From contig NZ_BCRP01000003.1 of assembly GCF_001552655.1 (NCBI RefSeq), positions 124,001-188,000 of the forward strand: a stretch of DNA of 64,000 bases, given 5' to 3'. Each line of letters begins with the position of its first letter. Positions within the stretch are counted from its first letter, which is position 1. Positions 1 through 9,813 of the stretch are shown piece after piece. Both the position numbers and the translations under genes were made by a program. The notes below the pieces were generated by a model. The model was not told the origin of the DNA and did no database searches. It saw only the letters and a list, made by a program, of their open reading frames with translations. The DNA comes from Alicyclobacillus kakegawensis NBRC 103104 (lineage in GTDB: Bacteria; Bacillota; Bacilli; Alicyclobacillales; Alicyclobacillaceae).

Positions 1-27
1 TCTTGCTCCTCGGGAACGACTGGGCAT
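1..27 (-). CDS. Possible 5' end of a gene running off the window
   Basis: An ATG at 27-25 on the minus strand sits behind a GGGGGTG ribosome-site-like run and stays open for nine codons to the window edge. A possible promoter lies upstream (TACACT at 76-71, with TCGTCA 17 bases before it). In B. subtilis rnhB follows rbgA, but nine codons are too few to recognise a product. The stretch between this and the rbgA stop holds only a T-rich run (CTCTCTCTTTTTT on the minus strand) that could end the rbgA transcript. Confidence 0.2.
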
Positions 28-152
28 GCAGCCACCCCCAACCCGTTTTGAACCCGTTGCTTGTATCTCTAGTGTAGCGAGAATCCAGGGTTGTGACGAG
101 ATACAATTTGAAAAAAGAGAGAGCCGATAGAATCCGCGTCCTGAAGTGCCCG

Positions 153-1040
153 TCAGACCTCGCTCGGCCACTCGAGACTGATGCGCCCCAGCTTGCCTGT
201 CTGCAACTCCCGCACTACCAGTTCGCTCACCCGCTCTGTGTCGGGCACCCCCCCGCGCCCCAGAAGCCCGCGCCGCATAGCGATTTGCTCCATCAGCGGC
301 TGGGCCAGGGTGTAGGCCTCAAGTGGATTCGCCGCGCGCAGATCATCCGGCAGGCTGTCCAACCCGTACCGCTCACACAGACAGTCTGGATAGTGGACGG
401 CCGCCCAGGTCAAGAAATACGCGCAGAGCTCCTGGATATCCAAAACCGACGACTTGAGGGCCCCGCTCAACGCCAGCCGAGCAGCGGCGTGCGGGTCTTC
501 CAACTTCGGCCACAGTACGCCAGGGGTGTCCAGCAGCTCCAATCCTGCAACACGAATCCACTGCTGAACCTTGGTGATGCCCGGACGGTCCCCGATGGAG
601 GTGGCAGCTTTTCCCGCCAAGCGGTTGATCAGCGACGATTTGCCCACGTTGGGGATGCCGACCACCATCGCCTTCACCGCTCGCGGCCGAATGCCTTTAC
701 GCAAATCGCGTTCCCGCTTGGCTGCGGTTGCTCGCTGCAGCGCCTTGGGTATCTCATCCACCCCGCGCCCGCTGCGGGCATCGACACCGAGCGTCTCCCG
801 GCCCAACGCCCGGAAGTGGCGGTGCCACTGTTCGGTCACCGAACCATCCGCCAAATCGATGCGCGTCATCACGGTCACACGGGGTTTGCTCCCCATCATC
901 TGATCCAGCATCGGATTGGCGCTGGCCATCGGCAGACGCGCGTCCACCAACTCAATGACCGCGTCCACTCGCCGCAGGCTTTCCGCCATCTCCCGGCGCG
1001 CCTTTGCCATATGACCTGGAAACCAGTTTATCGAGCGCAT
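153..1040 (-). CDS. rbgA: Ribosome biogenesis GTPase RbgA (YlqF)
   Basis: This 295-residue protein is a circularly permuted GTPase that acts late in 50S ribosomal subunit assembly. The permuted motif order is visible: the G4-like TRID (59-62) comes before the P-loop GIPNVGKSS (128-136) and the G3 motif DTPG (171-174). The N-terminal WFPGHM and the DAR motif (33-35) are typical of the RbgA/YlqF family, and the length is normal. The start ATG follows AGGGGGAAAAC. It lies directly downstream of rplS, as in B. subtilis, and may share its transcript, although a hairpin lies in between. RbgA in B. subtilis is essential and promotes loading of late 50S proteins. The lepB and rnhB genes often found next to it are not visible here. 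Confidence 0.95.
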   Translation of the reverse strand: MRSINWFPGHMAKARREMAESLRRVDAVIELVDARLPMASANPMLDQMMGSKPRVTVMTRIDLADGSVTEQWHRHFRALGRETLGVDARSGRGVDEIPKALQRATAAKRERDLRKGIRPRAVKAMVVGIPNVGKSSLINRLAGKAATSIGDRPGITKVQQWIRVAGLELLDTPGVLWPKLEDPHAAARLALSGALKSSVLDIQELCAYFLTWAAVHYPDCLCERYGLDSLPDDLRAANPLEAYTLAQPLMEQIAMRRGLLGRGGVPDTERVSELVVRELQTGKLGRISLEWPSEV

Positions 1041-1076
1041 GTTTTCCCCCTGTCCGCTCCGTCAACCCGGGCGTAC

Positions 1077-1111
1077 ACGAAAAGCGGGAGACACTGGTCC
1101 CCCGCTTTCGT
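1077..1111 (-). terminator. Hairpin between rplS and rbgA, weak terminator or attenuator
   Basis: The arms at 1077-1088 and 1101-1111 pair as ACGAAAGCGGG with CCCGCTTTTCGT around a 12-base loop, and a short TTTT forms part of the 3' arm on the minus strand. The T-run is short, so partial read-through into rbgA is likely. Confidence 0.4.
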
Positions 1112-1149
1112 AGGTTGCCCCCGATTCCACCTGCAGTTTTGACCAACGC

Positions 1150-1500
1150 TTAGGCGTTGTTGCGAATCTCTTTGATTCGCGCAGCCTTGCCGGAACGCCC
1201 ACGCAGATAATACAGCTTCGCGCGGCGCACGCGGCCACGGCGCACAACCTCAATCTTTTCGATGTTCGGCGAATGCAGAGGAAACGTCCGTTCCACGCCG
1301 ACTCCGTACGAAATCTTACGGACCGTGTACGTCTCACTGATACCGCCGCCCCGACGCCGGATGACCACACCTTCGAACACCTGCACGCGTTCACGCTGAC
1401 CTTCACGCACCCGCACATGCACGCGCAAGGTATCGCCCGGGCGAAACTCCGGAATATCGGAACGCAGTTGTTCCTGCGTAATCTCACGCACCAAATCCAT
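1150..1500 (-). CDS. rplS: 50S ribosomal protein L19
   Basis: This encodes ribosomal protein L19, found at the 30S-50S interface. The 116-residue product begins [19 protein letters not shown] and contains the family blocks [27 protein letters not shown] and [20 protein letters not shown], ending in the basic [15 protein letters not shown] tail. The ATG at 1500 is preceded by GGGAAGGAGG at good spacing. A longer in-frame extension upstream has no such support and no family counterpart. In B. subtilis trmD lies immediately upstream of rplS; here trmD is about 8.5 kb away. A candidate promoter at 1570-1599 would make rplS-rbgA its own unit. Confidence 0.97.
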
Positions 1501-1569
1501 AGACACGGCCTCCTTCCCGTTCGTGTTCGTACCAGAATGCTGGCAGAGGACCACGTAGTCACGCGCAAC

Positions 1570-1599
1570 AGTGTACCATAAGTCCACAAGCCCCTGCAA
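1570..1599 (-). promoter_or_regulatory. Candidate sigma-A promoter for rplS
   Basis: On the minus strand a TACACT -10 box (1575-1570) lies 18 bases after TTGCAG (1599-1594), placing a start site about 70 bases before the rplS ATG. The -35 box is poor. Confidence 0.35.
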
Positions 1600-1704
1600 T
1601 CACTGGTTGTCCGCGCGTCTGAATCGAGTGGGCCAGGTCGGCGACGGCCCCCCATAGCGGACCCTCACCGCCTAGTCATCTCCCATGCCTGGCCATCACA
1701 CACA

Positions 1705-1728
1705 AACGGCGCCGCAAGCGGCGCCGTT
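1705..1728 (-). terminator. GC-rich perfect hairpin after the 49-codon ORF
   Basis: AACGGCGCCGC (1705-1715) pairs perfectly with GCGGCGCCGTT (1718-1728). It lies 31 bases beyond the stop of the small riboswitch-linked ORF and before the rplS promoter. There is no T-run on either strand, so it is either a weak or factor-assisted terminator or an mRNA 3'-end stabiliser. Confidence 0.45.
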
Positions 1729-1759
1729 CGAGTACCTAAGGACTATTGAGATGCATGCA

Positions 1760-1909
1760 TCAGGACAAGAGCACGGGCCCCTCCTGATCCAGCGAACTGC
1801 CCGATTCTGTCTCCATTTCCGCATCATCCTTGGTAAAGGGTAGGCGATTGAGCGATCGGACAATCTCCATGTCACGAATCAAGTCTGGCAGCTCCGGCTG
1901 CTTCATCAT
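1760..1909 (-). CDS. Small hypothetical protein downstream of a c-di-AMP riboswitch
   Basis: This 49-codon ORF starts ATGATG (1909-1904), ends TGA (1762-1760), and has a clear GGGAGGG ribosome site seven to eight bases upstream. The product begins MMKQPELPDLIRDMEIVRSL and has an acidic C-terminal half (KDDAEMETESGSSLDQEG). I see no signal peptide, membrane segment or known motif, and I do not recognise the family. It is the first and only ORF after the ydaO-type riboswitch at 1939-2108 and is followed by a perfect hairpin, so the three look like one monocistronic unit. The alternative is that the peptide is only a leader. The strong ribosome site argues that it is translated. Confidence 0.6.
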   Translation of the reverse strand: MMKQPELPDLIRDMEIVRSLNRLPFTKDDAEMETESGSSLDQEGPVLLS

Positions 1910-1923
1910 GTTTAGGTCCCTCC

Positions 1924-2108
1924 CGATTTCATAGAATGAAATCGCGAGTTCCGCTCATATGGAAGTTCTGCCCATTCGGCTGAGCCGAAGTGGCACTCCT
2001 ACACGCTTACGGAGTTAGCTGACGGGTTAGGGCGTAGGATTCCCCTCGCGTACGCGATTCACCCCAAAAGACCGGGTCCTCCGCTTCCGATATGGAACTC
2101 AGCGATTT
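1924..2108 (-). ncRNA. c-di-AMP riboswitch (ydaO-yuaA class) with expression platform
   Basis: Read on the minus strand, the RNA has the hallmark blocks of the ydaO-yuaA family. These are GGACCC (2079-2074), GGGGTGAATC (2065-2056), the pseudo-symmetric GGGGAATCC (2045-2037) and the ACCCGTCAGCTAACTCCGTA-AGCGT type 3' block (2026-2003). A closing stem P1 pairs AAATCGC-(bulged T)-GAGTTCC (2108-2094) with GGAACTC-GCGATTT (1952-1939). The 3' strand of P1 is reused in a second hairpin, CGATTTCA/TGAAATCG (1944-1924), that abuts the GGGAGGG ribosome site of the 49-codon ORF. The two pairings exclude each other, which is what a riboswitch platform needs. Members of this family bind cyclic di-AMP and usually control cell-wall hydrolases or potassium/osmolyte transport. 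The class assignment is from remembered consensus, not a covariance search. Confidence 0.85.
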
Positions 2109-2125
2109 GAAGTTGACGTAACACT

Positions 2126-2154
2126 ATTATACGCGACATGGCCCGCATGAGCAA
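2126..2154 (-). promoter_or_regulatory. Sigma-A promoter of the riboswitch transcript
   Basis: A perfect TATAAT (2131-2126) lies exactly 17 bases after TTGCTC (2154-2149) on the minus strand, giving a predicted start near 2119, about ten bases before the riboswitch P1 stem. Confidence 0.75.
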
Positions 2155-2236
2155 CGCTGCCCTTGGGCTGCACAGGTCATCCCCTTCCTGGCCGACACTG
2201 GATGAACCGGTCCCGCAGGCCGAGCAGGGCCCCTCG

Positions 2237-3001
2237 TCACTTTGCGGCGGGCAGACCGCTCGGTGCCGCCACCTGGGGCACATCGTTGAAATTGGAAAAG
2301 ATGACATCGGTGGTCAGGGTAGTCGCCCCGCCAGTCGATGCTACCGATTGGGTCGTGGTCACCTGGTGCAGGAGGTGATCTGGGATACCGACAGCGAACG
2401 TGAACAGGGTATCGCCCTCGGCACGGCGCGCGTTTCCGGCGTTGCCCCAGAAGCTGTCCGTGCGCCGCCACGCCGTCGCCGGCAGCGATACCTCGTACAC
2501 ACGGCAAAATTGGCCGCCGACAAACTTTTGCGGACGCTCCGACAACCGCCGGTCATGGGCCCGCGCCCAGTTCAGCACGTTTCGATACTCTGCGAACCAA
2601 TTGAGGTCCAGGGGGTGGTCCAATTTGTGCCACGTATCCTGGTAGGCGTAATAACCGCCAGTCCCGTCCCGGTACACCTCGTACGACTCGCGCCCTGCCT
2701 GGACCTGAAAATCGGCCGCTCCATCGGCCCCGATACTGCCATGCACGCTTAAATTCCCTGATGTCGCGCCGTGCCGGGCGTGCACGTACACCTTCACCTG
2801 GTATGAGGATGCCTCCGCCGCCCGGGCCGTGGCAGTGTCCAGAGCCGTCCATACCGATGGCGCCGAGGAGACGGGCGAAGCCTGAAGTGGTTGGGTAGCG
2901 TTCGGATCGACGGCCGGCGTACAGCCGGCCAGGGACAGGCTGATCACCGCAACCATCCCTATCCAGGCGCGCCTCCCCCTGTTCACCCCTGTTACCGCCA
3001 C
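2237..3001 (-). CDS. Predicted lipoprotein of unknown function
   Basis: This 254-residue secreted lipoprotein has a signal peptide NRGRR-AWIGMVAVISLSLAGC, ending in a lipobox (LAGC) with the lipidated Cys near residue 28. The GTG start at 3001 was chosen because GAGGAGG lies eight bases upstream. It overlaps the end of the upstream membrane-protein gene by ten bases, suggesting coupling. The mature part (SYQVKVYVHARHG ... GQFCRVYEVSLPATAW) alternates beta-strand-like stretches, as in LolA/LppX-type lipid-binding lipoproteins. That fold is a guess; no catalytic motif is visible. It is the last gene of an apparent operon with a membrane protein and an O-antigen-ligase-like polymerase. Confidence 0.8.
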   Translation of the reverse strand: MAVTGVNRGRRAWIGMVAVISLSLAGCTPAVDPNATQPLQASPVSSAPSVWTALDTATARAAEASSYQVKVYVHARHGATSGNLSVHGSIGADGAADFQVQAGRESYEVYRDGTGGYYAYQDTWHKLDHPLDLNWFAEYRNVLNWARAHDRRLSERPQKFVGGQFCRVYEVSLPATAWRRTDSFWGNAGNARRAEGDTLFTFAVGIPDHLLHQVTTTQSVASTGGATTLTTDVIFSNFNDVPQVAAPSGLPAAK

Positions 3002-4674
3002 CGTAGACGCCTCCTCTGCTGCCATCCTGCCACCATAAAACCCGCCAGCACCAAAAGCCACGCCACCACCAAAGCTGGCTGCAGGGGCCAAAAATGTCTC
3101 GCCAACACAACGTACGCGCCACTGCCAGCCACCGCCGCCACCAGGCACGGTGGTTGTCCGGGGAAGAACTGCACCTGGCGGACGTTCTCAATCCCGCTTT
3201 CGAACACGCGCCAGTTCCGGTACAGCTGCCCGTCACGGTATGTGTAGGACGTCAGATAGGTCGTGCTGGACGAGCGAACGGCGCTCCGGTCGTCGGCCAA
3301 AATCTCGGGTGCCGCCCCGGGTGCGGTGCGGATGCTGGCAAGAAACTGCAGGTCGTCGTTGGGCGCCGTATAGATGCGGCGCGCGTGTCCGTCACCCGTA
3401 AAACTCAAGATATATGCGGGCGAGGCGTTGACGAAGACGGCATCTTTATCCGCCGTCCCAATGGGGCCGACCTGCATCCCCTCGCCAATCGGATTCGCCG
3501 GGGACCCGTGCAGACTCGCCACAACGTGCGGGCGGTTTCCTGCGAGCGACACCACCTCCAGGAGATTGCTGCCACCCAACAGCAGTTCGTGGGCGCCCGG
3601 CTTGGTGAACGAGCCGCTGCCGATGACAAACTGGGCATCGACGCGCACATGCACGGTGCGTCCCCGCCACTTCCCTGAGAGGACGCCGTTGTCGATGCGC
3701 CACGGCGCTACCGGCGCCACGCCAGCCTTGCGGAGTGCCTGCGACCAATCCTTCCACTCATCCTGGTGCGCCTGCACAATCAGCTCGGCCAACTCGGGTG
3801 CGTACTGGACGGGCTGTAATGCCGCGTCTACCGCGCCGGCGGACGATTGCGTCCGGACCGTGTACTGCAGCACTCGTCCCCCCACGACCGCCCACGTGCT
3901 CCGATCAAAAGGAGCCAAGGCGCCGCTCAACTCGGTCGGCTGAACCTCCGCCAGCTCCTGCGCCGTGGCCGGCCGCGCGCCGATCCGCCCGTTCTCCGGC
4001 GCCAGCTGCATGTACTGATAAACCAGGTGGTCGGCGGGCAGTTTCCCGCTCTTCACCGCTTGCAGGTAATCGTCGGTGTTGCTCCCGAACCGGGTGTCCG
4101 GCCAACGCGTCACCGTGAGCACCACCTCCCCGTGCTGGGTCCTGACCACGTCCAGCGGAAGCACCGGGTAATTCCCGTTATCCACGGTGAAGGTCCCGAC
4201 CGCCAAAACGCGAAAGTGGGTAAGCAGGGGCCACAGGTTTTCCGGCAGCCACGCGTTGGCTGCCGCCAGCACCAGCATGGAGCCGAGCAGCGCAGAGAGG
4301 GCCACCCTACCAATCCAACGGGCCGCAGCCGCCAAGATGGCCATGCTGATGGCCGCCGTCAGCACGCGCTGGCCCAACGGCAGGGAAGCGAACGACGCCA
4401 GGGCCTGGCACGCGCAGAGCGAAAAAAGGCTGAACACCACCCACCAGCGCCGGTGCGGCCGGGGAATGGCGAACACCCAAAGCCACGCCATGAGCAACAC
4501 GAGGAGAACACCGATGACAGCCAAGTCCTGCACGAGCGGCCGCACCAGCCATTCATCCACCAGATTTACAAACAACGACCAGGCCACACAGGCGAGGATG
4601 CGCGCCAGATGGCCCCAGTTACCCGTGAACAGGCGCCTCGCGCTGGATCTCGTTTGTATCCCGAGATGCTGCAT
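2992..4674 (-). CDS. Multi-pass membrane protein with large extracytoplasmic domain, unknown
   Basis: This 560-residue protein has about four or five N-terminal membrane helices (for example LAVIGVLLVLLMAWLWVFAI and ALSALLGSMLVLAAANAW). A hydrophilic region of roughly 350 residues follows, then one C-terminal helix (ALVVAWLLVLAGFMVAGW) and a basic tail. The hydrophilic region holds repeated beta-rich stretches that could form a propeller or sandwich, but I do not recognise a family. Its start lies inside the 3' end of the O-antigen-ligase-like gene (56-base overlap) and its stop overlaps the lipoprotein start, so the three genes are probably translationally coupled. A role in surface polysaccharide assembly is suggested only by this context. 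Confidence 0.75.
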   Translation of the reverse strand: MQHLGIQTRSSARRLFTGNWGHLARILACVAWSLFVNLVDEWLVRPLVQDLAVIGVLLVLLMAWLWVFAIPRPHRRWWVVFSLFSLCACQALASFASLPLGQRVLTAAISMAILAAAARWIGRVALSALLGSMLVLAAANAWLPENLWPLLTHFRVLAVGTFTVDNGNYPVLPLDVVRTQHGEVVLTVTRWPDTRFGSNTDDYLQAVKSGKLPADHLVYQYMQLAPENGRIGARPATAQELAEVQPTELSGALAPFDRSTWAVVGGRVLQYTVRTQSSAGAVDAALQPVQYAPELAELIVQAHQDEWKDWSQALRKAGVAPVAPWRIDNGVLSGKWRGRTVHVRVDAQFVIGSGSFTKPGAHELLLGGSNLLEVVSLAGNRPHVVASLHGSPANPIGEGMQVGPIGTADKDAVFVNASPAYILSFTGDGHARRIYTAPNDDLQFLASIRTAPGAAPEILADDRSAVRSSSTTYLTSYTYRDGQLYRNWRVFESGIENVRQVQFFPGQPPCLVAAVAGSGAYVVLARHFWPLQPALVVAWLLVLAGFMVAGWQQRRRLRWR

Positions 4675-5920
4675 GTTCTCCCCCCTTTGCCGCAGAGCCC
4701 GCGGTCAACGCCAGCGTCGCCACCGTGTAGTACGAAAGCGCCATGGGCGCGTACTCAAACACGTTCTCCATGGCATTGTGGATGAGTACGGCCAGCACCC
4801 CGGTGATGGCCCCCAGATACAGGTAGCGATGCACGTCGCGAGCGCGGCGCAGGGTTCGAAACAAGTCCAACACTAGACGCACATGCATGCCGAAGAACAG
4901 GACGAGCCCTATCAACCCCGCCTCGCCCAGCGTCTTGGCGTAGAAGCTGTCCGAATAAGTGGACAGGTGGTGAACCGTCGCCACGGCCCCTCCGTAGCGC
5001 CCAATCCCCGCTCCCAGCAGAGGGTTGGTGGACATGTGATCAAACGCCGACAGCCACTTGGCAATCCGCCCACTGTCGGCAGACTTAATCCAGTAGACCT
5101 GCGTGAACAAAGAGCCGATACGCGTCCGCACACCGGGCTCCAAGAACGCGCCGCAGATCAAAATCGCCAGCGGGACCAGGGCTCGGCGCTCAAAGGCAAT
5201 GGCGCTGATTACCAGGGCTCCGGCCAACCCCAGCCAAGCGCCGCGGGTAAAGGTCAGAATCATCGCCACTGCGCACACCACAGCCCCCAGGCCGTAGAAG
5301 ACTCGTCTGCGGCCCTGGGCCACGATGGCCAGACCGGCCAGCAACGGCGTCATCAGCGCCATATAGGACCCGAGTTCATTGGGGCTCTTGAGGACAGAAA
5401 ACACCCGCGTACGGACGTGTTCGTCCGGATCGACCCAGTCGGACGGAATCGGCACCCCGATGATGTACTGGTAGATGGCGTGCAAGGCGATGAGAACCGC
5501 CGCGCCGACCAGCAGATGGAGCAGCAGCCTGGCCTCATGCTTGCTCACCGCATACGGCAGGACAAAAGCAAACATCAGATAATAAATGTAAAATCCTGCA
5601 CCGGCGGCAGCATACTGGGGATCAGCCGCTCCCACAGCCGACAAGGCGACAATCCAAACCACAAACCAAAGGGCCGGCTTCTGCCAAGTCTGACGGGGCG
5701 GGCGCACGCCCCGCCGGTGGCGGCGAACCGCGACCCAGACCAGCGAGGCAAACGCCAGCTTGTCCCAGACCTCGCCGAGAGGGGTCAGCGGCGAAAGACG
5801 AAGAGCGTAGTCAATGATGGGAAAGAACATGAGCAGCCGCGGCACCCAGGTCGCCAGCCACACTTCCAGGGCATCCAGGTGCGTCGACGCTCGCCTAGGT
5901 GGCCTTGTTCTCAACGTCAT
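4619..5920 (-). CDS. O-antigen ligase / polysaccharide polymerase family membrane protein
   Basis: This 433-residue polytopic membrane protein has ten or more helices. It fits the Wzy/WaaL (O-antigen ligase) superfamily by its late motif FTRGAWLGLAGALVISAIA, a large loop after it, and the conserved tail region (STNPLLGAGIGRYGG, HLSTYSDSFYAKTLGEAGLIG, HNAMENVFEYAP). Gram-positive members polymerise or transfer exopolysaccharide or secondary wall polymers at the outer face of the membrane. The start at ATG 5920 is preceded by GGAG. A GTG 33 codons upstream has no spaced ribosome site and would add a non-hydrophobic Gly/Pro/Arg-rich leader. The gene lies 82 bases after the thioesterase gene and overlaps the next gene. 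No glycosyltransferases are adjacent, so the substrate is unknown. Confidence 0.8.
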   Translation of the reverse strand: MTLRTRPPRRASTHLDALEVWLATWVPRLLMFFPIIDYALRLSPLTPLGEVWDKLAFASLVWVAVRRHRRGVRPPRQTWQKPALWFVVWIVALSAVGAADPQYAAAGAGFYIYYLMFAFVLPYAVSKHEARLLLHLLVGAAVLIALHAIYQYIIGVPIPSDWVDPDEHVRTRVFSVLKSPNELGSYMALMTPLLAGLAIVAQGRRRVFYGLGAVVCAVAMILTFTRGAWLGLAGALVISAIAFERRALVPLAILICGAFLEPGVRTRIGSLFTQVYWIKSADSGRIAKWLSAFDHMSTNPLLGAGIGRYGGAVATVHHLSTYSDSFYAKTLGEAGLIGLVLFFGMHVRLVLDLFRTLRRARDVHRYLYLGAITGVLAVLIHNAMENVFEYAPMALSYYTVATLALTAGSAAKGGEHAASRDTNEIQREAPVHG

Positions 5921-9736: not shown

Positions 9737-9813
9737 TGGCGTGCCCGGAGAGATTCGAACTCCCGACCTCTTGATTCGTAGTCAAGCGCTCTATCCGGCT
9801 GAGCTACGGGCAC
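9737..9813 (-). tRNA. tRNA-Arg (anticodon ACG)
   Basis: The minus strand folds as a complete tRNA. The acceptor stem is GTGCCCG/CGGGCAC and the D arm is GCTC...GAGC. The anticodon stem CTTGA/TCAAG carries the loop CTACGAA (anticodon ACG, A34 presumably edited to inosine by TadA). The T arm GGGAG-TTCGAAT-CTCTC follows, and the discriminator G and CCA are encoded. It decodes CGU, CGC and CGA. It stands alone, with no other tRNA nearby. Confidence 0.97.

Follow-up and report, generated by a model that had tools for sequence, protein, structure and literature searches.

A candidate c-di-AMP-controlled transcription unit for a conserved small protein in Alicyclobacillaceae

The window, a 64,000-nucleotide stretch of the genome of Alicyclobacillus kakegawensis NBRC 103104, carries on its minus strand what is probably a transcription unit of a single gene under its own promoter, in which a c-di-AMP riboswitch would act on the translation of a conserved Alicyclobacillaceae protein of 43–54 residues, OFF with ligand, the product probably being a soluble partner-binding regulator. 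Judged by sequence searches, the RNA is of a known class and the protein is without a convincing library match. c-di-AMP is essential in many Firmicutes, and its riboswitches serve as pointers to the c-di-AMP regulon; a riboswitch kept in most members of a bacterial family before a lone small protein gene would point to a regulon member missed by the libraries searched.

Parts of the unit in the window

The covariance search proposed in the first-pass annotation, which had named a ydaO-yuaA aptamer here, returned a full-length RF00379 match (model positions 1–134) well over the gathering score (92.7 versus 38 bits). The cmscan alignment contains the model's conserved core and its paired elements, with two non-standard-pairing marks. 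The first-pass coordinates are correct, and the promoter, the GGGAGGG site, the 49-codon ORF and the hairpin behind it can all be read from the sequence (Table 1). For the promoter, the hexamers and their spacing stand and the −10 is perfect, but the −35 shares only 3 of 6 positions with TTGACA; for the hairpin, the ten perfect pairs stand, but the tail that follows, TTTGTGTGTG, is T-poor. Neither element was listed in a mechanical promoter and terminator scan of window positions 1–5000.

Table 1. Elements of the unit (window coordinates).
Element	Positions	Strand	Basis and remarks
Promoter TTGCTC-17 nt-TATAAT	2126–2154	−	TTGCTC 2154–2149, TATAAT 2131–2126; read from sequence
c-di-AMP riboswitch aptamer (RF00379)	1989–2114	−	cmscan, 92.7 bits, E 1.7e-20
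Aptamer 5′ strand AAAUCGC-U-GAGUUCC, which would form one half of the ON-state (antisequestor) helix	2094–2108	−	Duplex energies
Linker GGAACUCGCGAUUU, partner of either the aptamer 5′ strand or the ribosome-site region	1939–1952	−	Duplex and fold calculations, sequence
Sequestor hairpin over part of the ribosome site	1920–1948	−	Fold of leader end; minimum-energy leader fold
Ribosome-binding site GGGAGGG	1918–1924	−	Sequence
Small ORF of 49 aa with a conserved motif at the N-terminus and a tail that varies	1760–1909	−	ORF listing, homologues, pS/pN
GC hairpin 3′ of the ORF, ten perfect pairs, probable weak terminator	1705–1728	−	Sequence; T-poor tail

At the 34 loci of the family where the ORF was found, a hexamer resembling the −10 (at least 4 of 6) ends between −11 and +1 of the aptamer start in 33, in a count made without a shuffled control, the exception being genome G015. 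Terminator-like hairpins, some of them weak, lie 3′ of the ORF in 29 of the 34 under a lax rule (4 of 8 T; no control). Elsewhere in the window, an ordinary tRNA gene was found at 9740–9813 (−) with 68.3 bits.

Conservation of the gene, its riboswitch and its chromosomal place

Searched alone, the window protein found relatives in 15 of 41 family genomes (E ≤ 0.01, own genome counted). The profile of these 15 gave matches in 34 of the 59 genomes of the order, of which 33 are real members, all within the family; the remaining one, in G039 (E 0.006), was a weak stretch inside a 1182-aa frame and was dropped. A further diverged member (MKRPELPNFHVNLEIEQYLGEM..., TTG start), with the R-D pair of the motif replaced by V-N, was found in G029 by reading behind its riboswitch. 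An ORF with the N-terminal motif PELPxxxRDLEIxxSLxR is therefore present in 34 of the 41 family genomes (33 by profile and G029 by eye), its length being 43–54 codons from starts assigned in the analysis. The carriers include Alicyclobacillus pomorum, A. contaminans, A. herbarius and A. shizuokensis, the last two belonging to the window's own genus group. None of the 18 genomes searched in the sister family matched the profile. Of 398 genomes sampled from the class, 27 matched, all in the family, and none of the 368 non-family genomes did, among the matches listed. A second motif-bearing protein was sought in 10 genomes, where further matches were at chance level only (best E 0.82). The supposed orphan gene has relatives in 33 family genomes besides its own.

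The core of the ORF is under purifying selection. Over 20 codons, mean pS was 0.77 and mean pN 0.29 (528 pairs, not independent of each other, from 33 genomes; G029 left out), and the close pairs G010–G012, G000–G022 and G031–G032 differ by 7/0, 3/2 and 0/1 synonymous/non-synonymous changes, respectively. Six positions, E6, L7, D13, E15, I16 and L20, show no variation among 27 aligned members, and P5 and R12 hardly any. The tail is variable in length, and net charge ranges from −9 to +7 across the family, so that the description of a small acidic protein holds for the window's genus and not for the family as a whole.

These data bear on the suggestion that a lost larger gene has left the ORF behind the riboswitch as a decaying remnant, for which the short product, its lack of a known domain and the highly variable tail can be cited. 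The same N-terminal motif in an open frame of conserved length in 34 genomes, stop-to-stop frames of 92 codons at most in the first 15 members, selection on the core and the persistence of the ORF in two genomes without an aptamer core speak against it, and we give a remnant hardly any probability.

The riboswitch and the ORF occur together. In 32 of the 34 ORF loci (14 of the first 15), an above-cut-off RF00379 match precedes the ORF on the same strand, its end 56–114 nt from the ORF start. The two others, G024 and G025, belong to one genus and have no RF00379 match upstream of the ORF even at E ≤ 5; their leaders keep TATAAT, the start of the aptamer 5′ strand, the linker and the ribosome-site hairpin. 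As read from these leaders, the aptamer core has been lost in both genomes and the ORF retained. In G023, G028, G033, G037, G038 and G039, the order of the flanking genes is unchanged, the motif and the aptamer core are both missing between them, and no RF00379 match was listed at that place. The locus of G034 ends at a contig edge and was left out; among the 40 genomes judged, none has a riboswitch at the conserved place without the ORF. The joint conservation under purifying selection for which the first-pass annotation had proposed to look was found (32 of 34 loci, core pS > pN), and a disrupted ORF behind a retained RNA, named there as evidence against the unit, occurs in none of the 40 judged genomes, the opposite being seen in G024 and G025. 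Two natural leaders without the aptamer core set against 32 with it offer a ready test of the role of the switch, and they also bear on whether the small protein needs c-di-AMP control.

The place of the unit, next to rplS, had been called unusual; it is the inherited position in the family. In 33 of the 34 loci rplS lies downstream of the small ORF, the exception being G012 (G012:C17), where none is found in the 1404 bases to the contig end, owing to a local rearrangement or an assembly break. Further on, rbgA follows in 32 of 34 loci and an rnhB-like gene in 31 of 34, the downstream sequence of G031 and G029 being too short for the remaining neighbours. Upstream, 33 of 34 loci have a gene for a large membrane protein, which is missing in G040. 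Nine of the 34 carriers have a HlyD/EmrA-like gene between the unit and rplS. It should be noted that the names rplS, rbgA, rnhB and EmrA come from reading translations and not from a family search. The HlyD/EmrA-like gene precedes rplS in some genera only, with or without the small gene, and is present in four of the six non-carriers. Matches to the L19 leader (RF00556) were seen downstream of the small gene at L064 501–544 (−) and L018 440–482 (−), one scoring just below the cut-off (34.2 of 36 bits) and one weak (22.2).

The constancy of rplS, together with the terminator-like hairpins of most loci, at which read-through could be controlled, might make the unit an RNA or leader peptide (attenuator) for rplS or the EmrA-like gene. 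Conservation is, however, at the amino acid and not the nucleotide level, the next gene varies by genus, the downstream bases of G012 are without rplS, and in six genomes the unit is absent with the flanking genes unchanged. The sub-cut-off L19-leader matches suggest, on sequence, that rplS has leader control of its own in those two genomes. We consider the attenuator very improbable.

Alternative pairings of the leader and the direction of the switch

The first-pass annotation had described a 14-pair P1 stem. The only 14 pairs that match this description, with one bulge, join the aptamer 5′ strand to the linker: they form an alternative helix and not P1. Since its first strand is the 5′ side of P1/P2, this helix excludes the folded aptamer, and the linker is also the 5′ side of the hairpin that covers part of the ribosome site. 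In the folding model the 14-pair helix can coexist with neither the aptamer fold nor the hairpin over the ribosome site.

Both of the mutually exclusive pairings can form. The duplex of the 5′ strand with the linker has −18.0 to −29.0 kcal/mol in all 32 loci and the hiding-hairpin region −11.5 to −22.9 kcal/mol across the 32 leaders (−17.4 kcal/mol for the window sequestor, taken as the last 46 nt plus the start codon); the two share the linker in 32 of 32 loci. In the shuffle control, 0 to 10 of 1000 base-shuffled linkers were as good as the natural one in nine of ten genus representatives, and 54 of 1000 in the tenth, G040.

The linkers fall into few types, chiefly GGAACYCGCGA-like and GGAACUUGGC-like, which pair differently with the same 5′ strand, and the strand near the ribosome site changes with the type. 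In genus g6 the aptamer strand GAAUUCC stands with the linker GGAAU, as against GAGUUCC with GGAAC elsewhere, so that G to A in the strand goes with C to U in the linker, probably in one event. The 5′ strand of the g6 representative gave −20.8 with its own linker and −10.3 to −16.0 with foreign ones. The linker swap (own mean −22.3, swapped −19.9) showed a clear difference only for g6; outside it, foreign linkers often pair equally well or better.

The 5′-strand segment reads TCGCTGAGTTCC in 30 of the 32 unit leaders, and among the 21 other c-di-AMP riboswitches examined in the family only 3 have CGCTGAGTTC. These 21 are what is left of 22 of the 32 riboswitch loci besides the window's own once the copy of the unit in G005 is set aside; the other ten of the 32 were also copies of the unit. 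The invariance of the 5′ strand may reflect shared ancestry. Among other c-di-AMP riboswitches, pairs a few hundred bases apart on one strand occur in some family genomes (G008:C1:1060800–1061281, G014:C118:39532–40014, G007:C1:631004–631633), possibly for tandem control. The number of matches per genome is 20 in G029, 18 in G017, 16 in G006 and 3 in the window genome.

We infer ligand binding, an OFF direction and a kinetic order of the pairings as follows. With c-di-AMP bound, the aptamer would keep its own 5′ strand in P1/P2, and the linker, left free, would pair with the ribosome-site region and turn the gene off. Without c-di-AMP, the 5′ strand would capture the linker while the ribosome site is still to be transcribed, leaving the gene on. 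The protein would be made at low c-di-AMP, for example at low K+. On the modelled pairings, we regard a translational OFF switch as quite likely. Two diadenylate cyclase domain matches were found in the window genome.

The calculated folds did not reproduce the switching. The minimum-energy fold of the unliganded window leader contains the hiding hairpin, with a folding energy that is not unusual (z −0.91). When the 5′ strand was supplied, the accessibility of the ribosome site rose by at least 0.1 in 9 of 32 loci, fell by at least 0.1 in 7 (G004, G005, G010–G014) and changed by less than 0.1 in 16, the window's locus included (0.21 to 0.23). The hiding hairpin dominates in the aptamer-less leaders of G024 and G025 too, and these may therefore not be constitutively on. 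Consensus folding of the linkers yielded no structure, perhaps because MAFFT left the hairpins of the linker types out of register; the reading of the expression platform therefore rests on single folds and duplexes.

The hiding hairpin of the unliganded leader, and the low accessibility of many leaders with or without the 5′ strand, would also suit a gene that is off by default and turned on by c-di-AMP. However, the strand that competes with the hiding hairpin is the one the bound aptamer needs for P1/P2, and to our knowledge the known members of this riboswitch class are off-switches; we consider activation by the ligand unlikely and keep the OFF direction.

Role of the small protein and comparison with known systems

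The small protein has no significant match to a described family in Pfam, NCBIfam, PHROGs or PDB sequences. Scans of 27 members gave nothing convincing in Pfam (best E 0.045, in one member) or PHROGs (best E 0.035) and no match in NCBIfam. The best matches of a profile search against PDB sequences (E 0.006 and 0.01), in which no single stretch passes alone, are repeats in proteins taken to be designed. No name for the small gene was found in the literature searched, a scope that did not extend to the full published target surveys. AlphaFold2 models of five sequences show one helix at residues 10–20 with a mean pLDDT of 64.7, the rest of the chain being uncertain.

The function we infer for the protein is a guess, since the models give one short helix with modest confidence. 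The chance seems to us about even that it acts as a soluble regulator that binds a partner and is produced at low c-di-AMP, because it is tiny and without an evident membrane stretch and combines a helix motif that stays constant, its invariants being charged and apolar, with a free tail, and because the gene has its own promoter and mostly a terminator-like hairpin and persists without the aptamer core in two genomes. The constant motif would form a short helix, leaving the tail free to vary in sequence and charge. More tentatively, and with a probability slightly short of even, an undescribed protein family with a docking helix of about 20 residues and a free tail, under a riboswitch at one conserved place in most of the Alicyclobacillaceae examined, may relay the low-c-di-AMP signal to a partner. 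If so, c-di-AMP signalling would have a second step in the form of a riboswitch-made small protein.

More specifically, the protein could serve a potassium transporter, of the Trk/Ktr or Kdp kind, as a dedicated accessory subunit, K+ transporters being among the c-di-AMP riboswitch targets in PMC7266159. TrkH was found in 20 and KdpA in 23 of the 41 genomes, and no co-occurrence of either with the small protein was evident among them: many carriers are without TrkH or without KdpA, and some non-carriers (G028, G037, G038, G039) have KdpA. The window genome has the protein but matches to neither TrkH nor KdpA, which speaks against a dedicated partnership, and we rate such a subunit as slightly less probable still than the attenuator. 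As a separate observation, the window genome (G000, 99.75% complete) has no TrkH/KtrB and no KdpA match, and its K+ uptake probably rests on another system.

Above-gathering matches in the window and at the 32 riboswitch-bearing loci place the RNA in the ydaO/yuaA class (RF00379). PMC7266159 gives K+ and amino acid transporters, wall proteins and osmotic-shock proteins as targets of this class. The unit differs in that a stand-alone gene for a soluble protein of 43–54 aa, outside the classes listed there, follows the riboswitch. The product, without a Pfam or NCBIfam match, does not show the usual target class (transport, wall, osmotic response), which is a common trait of RF00379 and not a defining one. 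Of the target proposed in the first-pass annotation, the riboswitch before a stand-alone small ORF outside the usual classes is retained, and the orphan and the remnant are not. Two other riboswitches of the window genome, L002 and L003, have the same aptamer class but precede ordinary targets: judged by eye from the translations, L002 and L003 stand before genes for an ABC transporter of the osmoprotectant type and a wall protein of the LysM/3D type. A further parallel is MntS, the MntR-controlled small protein of Escherichia coli. The likeness would be that, in both, a very small protein is expressed in response to an ion or messenger signal.
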